From Spirosoma rigui (lineage in GTDB: Bacteria > Bacteroidota > Bacteroidia > Cytophagales > Spirosomataceae), in contig NZ_CP020105.1 in assembly GCF_002067135.1 (NCBI RefSeq), positions 1,488,001 through 1,552,000 of the forward strand: a stretch of DNA of 64,000 nucleotides, written 5' to 3'. Below the pieces are notes generated by a model. That model was not told where the DNA came from. It searched no databases and was given only the letters and a program-made list of their open reading frames with translations. A program made the position numbers and the translations under genes. This document shows positions 60,060 through 64,000 of this stretch, in pieces (within the stretch, counting starts at the first letter, position 1; every line of letters begins with the position of its first letter).

Positions 60060-60617
60060 TTACAACGTAAACACAACGTTGAACTTAAGCACCATGCCGT
60101 CTTCTGTCTTCATGCCCATCAGCGAAGGACGTTCAATATTATGATCGCTCATGTTTACTGGGAATTCGCCAGAGAGGGTTAGTTTGCCGCCCGCATCTTT
60201 GCGCGTCGCCTGCAGCGTAACGGGTTTGGCTACCCCGTGAAAAGTCAGGGTCCCTTTTGCCGTCAATGCACCGTTCTGCCCCGCCTTTATATCGGCGCTC
60301 ACGAACGTCACATTCGGGTATTTAAGCCCTTCAAGAACTTCCATCGCGTGTGAGTCGCGGTTGTTATTGTCGCTGTCAAACGAGGCTACTTTGACTGAAA
60401 CCGCAACCGTTTCAGGCTGTTTTGTCTCATCGTTGTAGATCAGGGCACAGTTAACATCGTGGCTAACTCCGTCCCAGTTGTGGAGCGGATGCCGGGCCGA
60501 GTACGTGACCGTCGACAGGCTCTTGTCGGCCATCAGCTTGCGCTTGGCCATCGGATTCACAAAGGCGCACAGTATCCCGATAGCCAGCAGGCAGCTATAT
60601 TTCATCATGACGTTCAT
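60060..60617 (-). CDS. YceI-family lipid-binding protein
   Basis: 185 residues. A short signal/hydrophobic start is followed by the YceI fold: VTYSARHPLHNWDGVS, KVASFDSDNNNRDSHAMEVLEGLKYPN-like sequence, and LTFHGVAKPVTL. YceI proteins bind isoprenoids in the periplasm. It lies four bases after the b561-like gene on the same strand, in a set with a Rieske gene. Confidence 0.9.
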   Translation of the reverse strand: MNVMMKYSCLLAIGILCAFVNPMAKRKLMADKSLSTVTYSARHPLHNWDGVSHDVNCALIYNDETKQPETVAVSVKVASFDSDNNNRDSHAMEVLEGLKYPNVTFVSADIKAGQNGALTAKGTLTFHGVAKPVTLQATRKDAGGKLTLSGEFPVNMSDHNIERPSLMGMKTEDGMVLKFNVVFTL

Positions 60618-60621
60618 GGGC

Positions 60622-61311
60622 TTAGAAAGTTAAGGCAACCACTGATGCGGCATATGCACCAAACGTTGTGTAGGCAGCCGCCCGGTGGTAAGGCTTGAGT
60701 TCCGGATTGTCCGAAATCATGTGTGCCAGTACGTTGGTAGCAATCATGCCTGTCAGGTGAACGATAGCCAGGTATTTATGCAGCTTAATGGAGGTAAATC
60801 CCTTGCGGGCGCCAATGACCGGCGGGGGCGTTGTAAGCGAAAGCGCCAGCGTTGTTCCGTAGGCGATGTTGATGAACGTAGCCGACCGTTCGTGCCATTT
60901 CTTCGTGTCGGCATATTCCTGCCCTTTCGCATTGTACAGCTTGGCACCGAGCAAACCCTGCGCCACAAAACCGGCCAGGGTAACAAACCCGCCAATCTGG
61001 TGCGTAATGAGCATGGTACGCCGGACGTTCAGTTCCTTTGTTCGGCCTTCCGGCGTCAAGGGAGCTACCTTCAGGACGCGCAATAGCCCTTTGGGACCCC
61101 AGAACGCCCGTTGTGTGAACAGCATCTTGTGCGGCAGCAGCGGCTGCGCTGCATCAGTCGAGTCGGCAAGGCCAGCGAGCAGATCACTGGCCGATGGGTC
61201 GGCTGCAGTAGCGGGCGTACCGGTTGTATCCCGCCGTACCGAAGTAGTATCCTGCGCCCGTAACGATCCCGCCCCAAGCCCGATCAGTAAGGCAAACCAG
61301 ATGAATTTCAT
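60622..61311 (-). CDS. b561-like membrane protein (probable heme b)
   Basis: 229 residues. A signal-like start (ends at LRAQ), then about four helices. Candidate heme-ligand histidines are His104 (THQIGG), His140 (KWHERS), His178, His185 and His197 (KLHKY, VHLTGM, LAHM) and His209. The spacing of paired His on helices fits a cytochrome b561-like electron carrier, but I do not recognise a precise family. It lies between a Rieske lipoprotein gene (11 bases) and yceI (4 bases), so the three should be co-transcribed. Confidence 0.7.
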   Translation of the reverse strand: MKFIWFALLIGLGAGSLRAQDTTSVRRDTTGTPATAADPSASDLLAGLADSTDAAQPLLPHKMLFTQRAFWGPKGLLRVLKVAPLTPEGRTKELNVRRTMLITHQIGGFVTLAGFVAQGLLGAKLYNAKGQEYADTKKWHERSATFINIAYGTTLALSLTTPPPVIGARKGFTSIKLHKYLAIVHLTGMIATNVLAHMISDNPELKPYHRAAAYTTFGAYAASVVALTF

Positions 61312-61322
61312 GGACTGTTGGT

Positions 61323-61844
61323 TTAGGCGGTTACCGTTAAGGTATTACCATCGGCACTGACGGACGTTTTGTAGAGTTTCATCGCTGCCTGTCCGGGTTC
61401 GGCGGGTGCTTTTGTGCTTCCATCAATGGCAAAGACAGAGCCGTGTGCCACACACAGGAAATCATTGGATGTGAGCCGGTAACCAACGCCATCCTGCCCC
61501 TGGTGGGTACACAGGCGCTGAATGGCCACGTATTTCCCCCCCACAGTATTCGCAATCAATACGTCACCTACTTTCACGTATTCGCCCACGGTTTTAAGCT
61601 TTGTAAAATCCGGATTTGTCAAATCAACCGTGAAATTGATCGCTCCTTTCGACGTTTGGCTGTTGCCCGTCAGACCGGTACTGGTGGTCGGTGTGCCGGC
61701 CACTGGTGCTGGATCGTCACTTTTGGAGCAGGATGTCAGCGAAGTTCCCATGCAGTAAAAGGCCATCAGGGCCGCACTGCTCATACCTAGACTGCGCAGG
61801 AATTCACCGCGCTTCATTTGTTCACTCATTGGATTAGCTTTCAT
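61323..61844 (-). CDS. Rieske 2Fe-2S protein, lipoprotein type
   Basis: 173 residues. A signal with lipobox LTSC (Cys39) anchors it to a membrane. The Rieske site is complete: CTH (Cys112, His114) and CVAH (Cys131, His134). The Ser/Thr-rich linker after the lipobox fits. It should carry one-electron transfer in the periplasm, with the following b561-like protein as natural partner. It is not a bc1 subunit, as no petB/petC is near. Confidence 0.9.
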   Translation of the reverse strand: MKANPMSEQMKRGEFLRSLGMSSAALMAFYCMGTSLTSCSKSDDPAPVAGTPTTSTGLTGNSQTSKGAINFTVDLTNPDFTKLKTVGEYVKVGDVLIANTVGGKYVAIQRLCTHQGQDGVGYRLTSNDFLCVAHGSVFAIDGSTKAPAEPGQAAMKLYKTSVSADGNTLTVTA

Positions 61845-61914: not shown

Positions 61915-63558
61915 TCAGAGTTTATAACGTAATGAGAAGAAAGCGCCGGTGCTCAACAGGTCGATTTTGAAGAAGCCAACGCCTTTCAGCGGCACCTTCA
62001 TAAACGGCTCAACCTGCCACGATAGCCGGCGGCTGAACGAGCGCTCGAAACCGCCCGACAGATTTAACTGGCTGAAACCGTTCCAGCCTGTGCTGCCGTG
62101 CCATTCTTTCGGAACGTTATACGTGTGAGCGGGATAAGCGTAGACGTAGTCTTCCCGATTGATGTAATACGTAGTAGCCCCTCCGCTCACAAACCACCGG
62201 TCGGGCAGGCGACCGTCCGACCGGGGCCGGATAACCAGGTCGTAGCGCAGGTTGATCGGAATGTCGAACATCCGGCAGCTCCCGTCGACGCTCAGCGGCC
62301 TTGTTGCTGATGTCCAGGTACTGGGCCACTCATAATCATTCGGGTAAGCCTTGTATATTTTTGTACTGCGTAAAACGCCCGCCTGAATGCTCCAGCGCGG
62401 AGCCAGCCGGTATTCTGCCATAATTCCTACGTTGGTACCGGGCCGCTGGAGTTCCCGTAGTCCGATGCTGCTCAGATCGGGCGACACCAGGAAGCGAACA
62501 CTCAGCCCCCTGGCTGAGGAAGCGGGCTGCGCCAACGCTGGCTGCGCCACTGCCGGTTGCTCAACCCGGGTGGTAGGCAGTACTACGTCCCGGCCCCGGA
62601 AAGGTAACGGACTAGGCCACTGCCCCGGCCGGTTGGTGAGCGCATCGAATGATAGAAGTACCACCGGCGTGGCCACATCCGATACCGGTTGTGCACTGAT
62701 ACCGGGTAACGGCTCATTCGTTTCCGAATTGCTGACTGACCCGGCCGGTGTTCGCTTTGTCGAAACCAGTCGATTGGCCTGTGTACCAAATGATCTGGTT
62801 GGGTATGGTGATGCTGGGGTGTTGGCTGGCAGCACCCTGACCGAAGAATTGGTGCGTGAACGTCTGGTACTACGGTTGGCTAAACCGGTCCGAAGCCGTT
62901 CGCGGGGCGCTGTTGTGCCCGACCGGGCCAGCAAATTGCTTTCTGAACGTATCCGGTCGGGCATACGGGTATCGGCCACGGGAGCCGTAGTAGCAGCGGT
63001 ACCGACAGCATTTATCTCCGCGTCTGAAGCGGGCCGACGGTCATGGCTGGTTGGCGCGGAAATCGCCGTCCGGCTGGTGCCGCGAACCTCGCTGGCCGAC
63101 AACGCTGGTAATTCCTGGTTATTCGGCCGGTTCGGCGAAGCATCAGCCCGCCGGTTGGGGACAGGATTCGCCGATTCGATTGCCTGCCGGGGCCCAACGG
63201 CTTGCTCACCGGGCAGACCGGGCTTCGTCGACGCCGTCGGCTGATCGGAGGTAGCGGGCGTCGTTGTCACCGTGCCCGGTAGCGAACGGACGTTTGTCTG
63301 GTTAACCGGCGGCCTGTTCAGGGACGTAGCCAGTACCTGTTTGTGGTACGCGTTCCAGCTACCGGCCGTCAAGATCAGCAACAGCAATACGGGCATTCCC
63401 CACCGGAGCATATGTTCCCAGGCTGAATAACGATCGTGGTTATCCAGACGGCTTTTCATATCCTGCCAGGCAGCCGGATCGAACGGTATATCGAACTCTT
63501 CCCCCGATTTTCTGAAGAGTCCGTCCAATTGATCATCGGTTGGTTCTTGCATACTCAT
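61915..63558 (-). CDS. Predicted trans-envelope protein: anti-sigma-like N-terminus plus outer-membrane barrel
   Basis: 547 residues. Residues 1-50 are acidic and helical (DDQLDGLFRKSGEEFDIPFD, AAWQDMKSRLD) as in small cytoplasmic anti-sigma segments. One membrane helix follows at about 55-70 (MPVLLLLILTAGSW). Residues about 75-350 are a long disordered Pro/Thr/Arg-rich linker. From about 352 to the end is a beta-barrel-like region with aromatic-ended strands (IMAEYRLAPRWSIQAGVL, FSQLNLSGGFERSFSRRLSW, TGAFFSLRYKL). The gene overlaps the sigma-factor gene by 26 bases. A polypeptide joining cytoplasm to outer membrane is unusual and inferred from topology only. Confidence 0.8.
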   Translation of the reverse strand: MSMQEPTDDQLDGLFRKSGEEFDIPFDPAAWQDMKSRLDNHDRYSAWEHMLRWGMPVLLLLILTAGSWNAYHKQVLATSLNRPPVNQTNVRSLPGTVTTTPATSDQPTASTKPGLPGEQAVGPRQAIESANPVPNRRADASPNRPNNQELPALSASEVRGTSRTAISAPTSHDRRPASDAEINAVGTAATTAPVADTRMPDRIRSESNLLARSGTTAPRERLRTGLANRSTRRSRTNSSVRVLPANTPASPYPTRSFGTQANRLVSTKRTPAGSVSNSETNEPLPGISAQPVSDVATPVVLLSFDALTNRPGQWPSPLPFRGRDVVLPTTRVEQPAVAQPALAQPASSARGLSVRFLVSPDLSSIGLRELQRPGTNVGIMAEYRLAPRWSIQAGVLRSTKIYKAYPNDYEWPSTWTSATRPLSVDGSCRMFDIPINLRYDLVIRPRSDGRLPDRWFVSGGATTYYINREDYVYAYPAHTYNVPKEWHGSTGWNGFSQLNLSGGFERSFSRRLSWQVEPFMKVPLKGVGFFKIDLLSTGAFFSLRYKL

Positions 63559-64000
63559 CGTAGTTTAATTGCTTCAGCAACAGGCGCAGGTTTTCCCGCG
63601 CTCGTGCCAGGTTCGACTTCGACGCCCCAACCGAAATGCCGAGTTGTGCAGCAATTTCGTCGTGCGTAAATCCATCCATAACGTATAAATTAAAGACCAG
63701 CCGGTAGGCCGGTGATAAGTGCTGGATCAAACCCAGCAGTTCTTCGTGTGCAAGCTGACTCTGCGCGTCGGCCGTTTCCGACATAACAGTTTGCTCGGCC
63801 CGTTCTACAGTCTCAAAATGGTGATGACGAACCTCTTGCCGATAGTGATCGAGAGCCGCGTTGATCAGAATCCGCCGGAGCCAGCCTTTGAAGGGCTGGG
63901 TGGTGTCATACTGTTCCAGACGCGTGAAGACTTTCAAAAACCCATCGTTCAGCACTTCCAGCGCGCCCTCGCGCGTGGGTGCATACCGCAAACAAATGCT
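63533..64000 (-). CDS. ECF RNA polymerase sigma factor, partial (N-terminus outside window)
   Basis: The frame is open to the window edge; about 155 residues are visible. The sigma-2 part is YAPTREGALEVLNDGFLKVF and PFKGWLRRILINAALDHYR; the sigma-4 helix-turn-helix is FTHDEIAAQLGISVGASKSNLARAR. It directs RNA polymerase to a specific promoter class. Its 3' end overlaps the gene for the anti-sigma-like barrel protein, the common sigma/anti-sigma arrangement. Confidence 0.9.
   Translation of the reverse strand, partial: SICLRYAPTREGALEVLNDGFLKVFTRLEQYDTTQPFKGWLRRILINAALDHYRQEVRHHHFETVERAEQTVMSETADAQSQLAHEELLGLIQHLSPAYRLVFNLYVMDGFTHDEIAAQLGISVGASKSNLARARENLRLLLKQLNYDEYARTNR

Follow-up and report, generated by a model that had tools for sequence, protein, structure and literature searches.

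Anti-sigma factors that run from the cytoplasm to the outer membrane as one chain have been published for Bacteroides as the Reo and Dma proteins, and the function of this architecture has been described (PMC9308784, PMC13088901, PMC13114119). Dma2 is composed of an anti-sigma N-terminus, one transmembrane (TM) helix, a long disordered tether and a C-terminal beta-barrel, with an ECF sigma gene adjacent to its own, and the dma2 phenotype requires das2 (PMC13088901). Reo, of the pair named EcfO-Reo in PMC13114119, was described as reaching through all five compartments and as a sensor of stress at the outer membrane (PMC9308784, PMC13114119); an oxygen response was reported for the pair (PMC13114119). 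Genetically, loss of a Reo/Dma anti-sigma factor switches on the sigma regulon (PMC9308784, PMC13088901). In Dma3 of B. thetaiotaomicron the sigma domain itself is fused to tether and barrel. The FecI-FecR-FecA system also couples the state of the outer membrane to an ECF sigma factor, with FecR and FecA as separate proteins and FecA a TonB-dependent receptor of 22 strands.

We analyzed a 64,000-nucleotide stretch of the Spirosoma rigui genome (contig NZ_CP020105.1, positions 1,488,001 to 1,552,000; hereafter the window), in which one minus-strand ORF had been predicted to link an anti-sigma-like cytoplasmic segment to an outer-membrane barrel and to control the overlapping ECF sigma gene (Table 1). 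The core of that prediction has good support: the structural model agrees with it, the gene is strictly paired with the sigma gene, and both ends of the protein are homologous to Reo/Dma proteins. The prediction had taken FecIR as the state of the art, however, and overlooked the Bacteroides proteins of the same architecture, so the kind of protein is not new. By sequence comparison the window protein is a member of the Reo/Dma family. Set against the published descriptions of Dma1 and Dma2 (Pardue et al., 2024 PNAS; 2026 J Bacteriol, PMC13088901), it has, by prediction, the same four parts, and likewise an adjacent ECF sigma gene. The Bacteroides members adjoin or regulate NigD-like genes and PULs, whereas the neighbors of the window member are Rieske, His-rich membrane protein, YceI and Lipoprotein_15 genes. 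Vesiculation is an observation on the Dma side. The architecture and sigma pairing of EcfO-Reo (Bacteroides fragilis, Phocaeicola vulgatus; PMC9308784, PMC13114119) are likewise the same, but the barrels have low identity. Unlike Dma3, the window has its sigma and anti-sigma factors in two overlapping genes.

Table 1. Features of the Spirosoma rigui locus, in window numbering (residue numbers refer to the 547-aa protein).
Feature	Position	Strand	Basis
Dma/Reo-type trans-envelope anti-sigma factor (assigned by sequence)	61915..63558	-	547 aa ORF
Putative sigma-binding (anti-sigma) domain, residues 1-50	63409..63558	-	conservation and hhalign to Reo-type N-termini
Predicted single inner-membrane helix, residues 51-72	63343..63408	-	hydropathy in all homologues; model helix 28-80
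Predicted disordered periplasmic linker, residues 81-344	62527..63318	-	pLDDT <50; unconserved sequence
Predicted 8-stranded outer-membrane beta-barrel, residues 351-547	61918..62508	-	model strands, PDB and Pfam matches
ECF sigma gene, cut by the window end	63533..64000	-	Sigma70_r2 and Sigma70_r4_2 above Pfam cut-offs
Sigma/anti-sigma gene overlap, 26 bp	63533..63558	-	ORF coordinates
Rieske [2Fe-2S] secreted protein, directly after the anti-sigma gene in the cluster	61323..61844	-	PF00355 E 2e-6; order conserved
229-aa His-rich membrane protein	60622..61311	-	nearly invariant His in homologues
YceI-family protein, last gene of the cluster	60060..60617	-	PF04264 E 1e-22; gene order

Computation established the predicted domain layout and barrel. 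An AlphaFold2 model of the full chain, built on a 20-sequence alignment, placed helices at residues 8-21 and 28-80, the latter continuing through the membrane helix; confidence in the N-terminal fold was modest (block pLDDT 58-77). The first 50 residues carry 12 Asp/Glu vs. 5 Lys/Arg and contain the signature LDxLFRKxxEEF..P.DPaaW..M...LD. Translation may start at Met1 or Met3, and some homologues begin at the Met3 equivalent. The hydrophobic segment lies at about residues 51-72. The linker has 264 residues with pLDDT <50 almost throughout, lacks Cys, and is made up of P, A, T, R and S at 13, 12, 11, 11 and 11%, respectively. From residue 351 onward the model gives exactly eight strands (351-365, 368-384, 389-404, 423-444, 453-474, 485-507, 512-523, and 534-546) at block pLDDT 73-95, and the chain ends in ...FFSLRYKL. 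The features read earlier from the letters were confirmed: an acidic, helical N-terminus of 50 residues, one membrane helix (then put at about 55-70), a Pro/Thr/Arg linker (then about 275 residues, right to within about ten), and a barrel-like end (then the last 196 residues, now the C-terminal 197, predicted with high confidence). Three outcomes that would have spoken against that prediction did not appear, namely a model without a barrel, homologues with a soluble C-terminal part (those of the genus keep the barrel) and any sign of N-terminal export.

The best PDB matches of the barrel in Foldseek were OmpA, NspA, Ail, and OmpX, with E 1e-8 to 4e-7 and TM-scores by target of 0.65-0.75 for the OmpA/NspA-type barrels. 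In Pfam, OMP_b-brl_2 was matched by 19 of 20 members, at best with E 1.4e-5, the window protein itself reaching only E 0.04. By sequence, no credible solved relative was found; the best E, 0.025, was to low-complexity-like stretches.

A match to the window protein is present in 36/36 genomes of the genus Spirosoma and in 115/150 of the family. All 28 full-length homologues of the genus have the N-terminal motif, the hydrophobic segment, the linker, and the barrel end intact, with a linker of about 234-302 residues. Whether these parts always occur together had been raised as a check on the prediction: within the genus they do, across the class they do not. Mean pairwise identity is 0.80 for residues 1-40, higher than anywhere else in the chain, 0.61 for the TM helix, 0.14 for the linker (81-300), and 0.64 for the barrel, in which several inter-strand segments are also well conserved. 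Conserved ends around an unconserved linker are what a chain with two functional regions and a spacer between them would show. The sigma gene continues for another 111 bp outside the window, and its full product has 192 aa (L002:10533-11111); in 28 of the 28 full-length genus copies that were parsed, its overlap with the anti-sigma gene measures 20 or 26 bp. Presence throughout the genus, the constancy of the parts and the sigma overlap indicate that the architecture is more than chance.

We compared both ends of the protein with the Bacteroidales relatives by hhalign. The N-terminus was matched to Bacteroides ihuae-type Reo N-termini at 96.5% (E 8e-10) and the barrel to the corresponding barrel at 84% (E 8e-6), with 16% identity over the aligned part. 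One such relative from the same class as the window genome (L100 in G240) lies beside a sigma gene and a NigD-like lipoprotein gene, and is 100% identical to a Bacteroides ihuae gene (L107). The sigma factors of all pairs with this anti-sigma domain, Bacteroides Reo-type included, fall into one clade (support 99/97), a wide clade that also holds L159, a sigma factor without this anti-sigma domain. The window sigma belongs to a Cytophagales-type sub-clade separate from the Bacteroidales one, and we therefore claim no orthology with Dma1, Dma2, or Reo. Sigma binding and membrane topology of the window protein are inferred by analogy with these homologues. A Dma3-like single chain of 547 aa was also observed (L103:1405-3048, G337), consisting of ECF sigma regions 2 and 4, a TM helix, a linker, and an OMP_b-brl_2 barrel.

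The anti-sigma gene lies in a cluster with the order Lipoprotein_15 - sigma - Dma - Rieske - 229-aa His-rich membrane protein - YceI, which is kept in 21/21 genus loci and in most neighboring genera of the family. This conserved gene order is new here. The lipoprotein at the cluster head matches PF03640 (E 6e-38), and the Rieske ligands C112, H114, C131, and H134 are conserved. The 229-aa protein matched no Pfam family. Its residues H104, H140, H178, H185, and H209 are nearly invariant among 32 homologues, and these five His suggest that it is possibly a heme protein and a candidate for a new b-type cytochrome. It is 4-helix-like and always found between Rieske and YceI. The output of the cluster may be guessed to be an envelope redox or oxidative-stress module; an envelope redox output is plausible in view of the Rieske and YceI genes and of how EcfO-Reo was reported to respond to oxygen (PMC13114119).

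An ECF-type promoter-like motif, GCAACC-N16-CGTA, precedes the cluster in 39/41 loci, compared with 0.28 expected after shuffling. For S. rigui itself it falls at 65103-65130 in window numbering, just outside the window. In genera without the lipoprotein gene the motif stands directly before the sigma gene, and at three loci checked (L139, L141, and L142) it stands before both the lipoprotein and the sigma genes. It was not seen upstream of three Bacteroidales sigma genes examined. The conservation of the motif speaks strongly for an ECF promoter under autoregulation, as inferred from sequence, and such a promoter for a Dma cluster is new here. A stricter form, ACGCAAC-N16-18-CGTA, occurs 12 times in the window genome vs. 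6 for the reversed control, mostly inside ORFs. The only intergenic sites with a start codon just downstream were the promoter of the operon itself and one before a small lipoprotein gene. In this genome-wide scan the predicted regulon beyond the own operon was thus almost empty, and with so few intergenic sites we claim no broad regulon.

These results carry a group of regulators known from gut Bacteroidales into a distant order of the same taxonomic class, where it is universal in one genus. They also supply the Reo/Dma group with a strictly conserved operon as its probable target and with a clear promoter sequence, both of which it had previously been without. Operon and promoter together make a ready reporter for what Reo/Dma proteins sense.

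We consider it highly probable, taking the explanation as a whole, that the window protein is a Dma/Reo-type anti-sigma factor acting through the envelope to control the co-encoded ECF sigma factor and its own operon. The N-terminal helical domain would hold the sigma factor in the cytoplasm, and one helix would span the inner membrane, leaving the N-terminus on the cytoplasmic side. The disordered linker would serve as a slack tether of sufficient length to bridge the periplasm, and the barrel, folded in the outer membrane, would anchor the chain. When the barrel is disturbed, not assembled, or bound by a ligand (the signal is our guess), a change would reach the inner-membrane end and free the sigma factor. 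This release, also a guess, would most likely occur by loss of the tether or by proteolysis, the latter by analogy with other anti-sigma factors. The earlier prediction had suggested control without an intermediate; a protease, BAM, or an accessory protein might nevertheless be the agent that makes the barrel release sigma. The freed sigma factor would then transcribe its own operon from GCAACC-N16-CGTA, that is, the genes of the Lipoprotein_15 lipoprotein, the sigma and anti-sigma factors, the Rieske protein, the His-rich membrane protein, and YceI.

Within this explanation, one alternative concerns the signal only. The barrel may be a test client of BAM rather than a ligand sensor, such that on overload the unfolded barrel is degraded and the sigma factor freed. 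Two distinct antibacterial toxins induce the homologous pair of Phocaeicola vulgatus, which was taken as an envelope-stress response, and one of them, bacteroidetocin A, inhibits BamA (PMC9308784, PMC13114119); a minimal barrel of eight strands would also suit this role. The authors of the Dma2 work, however, propose that the signal is a surface glycan (PMC13088901), and the conservation of the barrel and of several inter-strand segments would be needless in a mere folding probe. We regard monitoring of assembly as a serious candidate whose probability lies slightly below even.

Two further readings were considered. The protein might be just an outer-membrane barrel of the common sort whose unusual leader is cleaved off on export, in which case the overlap with the sigma gene would reflect operon packing only. 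Such barrel genes are common in the window genome (17 PF13568 matches), but a disposable leader would hardly be the best-conserved stretch of the chain, nor does it look like a signal peptide, as 50 polar, acidic residues precede the hydrophobic segment. The same N-terminal domain also follows a sigma gene in contexts without any barrel. Given the N-terminal conservation and the homology with the Bacteroides Reo N-terminus, we rejected a simple exported barrel and consider it very improbable. The other reading, a FecIR-like system with a FecA-like barrel as transducer joined to FecR in one chain, shares the general logic of an outer-membrane signal, an anti-sigma factor, and an ECF sigma factor. 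The predicted barrel, however, has 8 strands, not 22. Pfam searches gave no match to FecR, secretin/TonB-N, or TonB-receptor domains (FecR and TonB-receptor were checked at E 1), and the conserved cluster lacks a TonB-receptor gene. The window sigma scored 70.3 bits against the Bacteroidetes FecI-like family TIGR02985, below the curated NCBIfam cut-off of 126.4. With these domains absent and that cut-off not reached, a FecIR fusion was rejected and has next to no likelihood, and a Dma/Reo-type anti-sigma factor is the reading we retain.

A class-wide search with the N-terminal 84 columns only showed that the anti-sigma domain precedes differing C-termini, typically beside a sigma factor with the same region-4 signature. 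Barrel C-termini with Pfam support were found in L068, L071, L072, L077, L081, L083, L088-L090, and L092. Other relatives carry PKD repeats and a CHU_C / T9SS type B C-terminus; of 5 scanned for CHU_C, 3 passed the cut-off of that family, and TIGR04131 was matched at E 0.01 in 6 of 8 PKD-type relatives, none shown above its own cut-off. These PKD-CHU_C relatives (L073, L076, L082, L084, L085, L086, L093, and L095, from six or more genomes of the class) have the layout anti-sigma domain, TM helix, linker, and PKD; the predicted structure has two helices, the TM segment, disorder, and two confident beta domains. In a literature search we found no paper on an anti-sigma factor with a type IX secretion signal. 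Short anti-sigma factors of about 240-275 aa have the same N-terminal domain with neither barrel nor CHU_C (L070, L074, L080, L087, L091, and L094).

Judged by sequence, this modularity, with one domain apparently fused to a barrel, encoded next to an independent barrel gene, or joined to PKD and a type IX signal domain, is new here. A broader proposal, that a modular Bacteroidota family plugs one N-terminal domain into different outer-membrane machines (a BAM-made barrel, a separate barrel gene, or PKD with CHU_C type B), each reporting on a different export route, is tentative and in our estimate rather unlikely. If it is true, the PKD-CHU_C version would be an anti-sigma factor that the type IX system handles as a client or that serves to gauge this system. 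Through the relatives with a split barrel or a type IX domain, sensors could be compared with the anti-sigma domain held constant.

Sigma genes paired with PKD-CHU_C or short anti-sigma factors have an upstream motif of their own, GCAACC-N14-15-CGT(T/C)A (L196-L225; G349, G428, and others). In G349 it occurs 8 times vs. 0 in the reversed control, before the sigma gene, an AlgH-like gene, and genes for secreted PKD-like proteins; in G428 it lies ahead of two secreted repeat-like proteins. The window genome has a split version at L181:825-3354 (contig 1667324-1669853), where three separate genes with 4-bp overlaps encode sigma, a 305-aa anti-sigma factor whose long tail is disordered, and a 333-aa barrel; the single chain has here a natural counterpart made of two proteins. 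Two further sigma/anti-sigma pairs of this genome have probable C-terminal barrels, at L180:2182-4432 (565 aa) and L182:1229-3614 (604 aa, where barrel support is weak), and GCAAC-N16-CGTA lies upstream of the L182 sigma gene.
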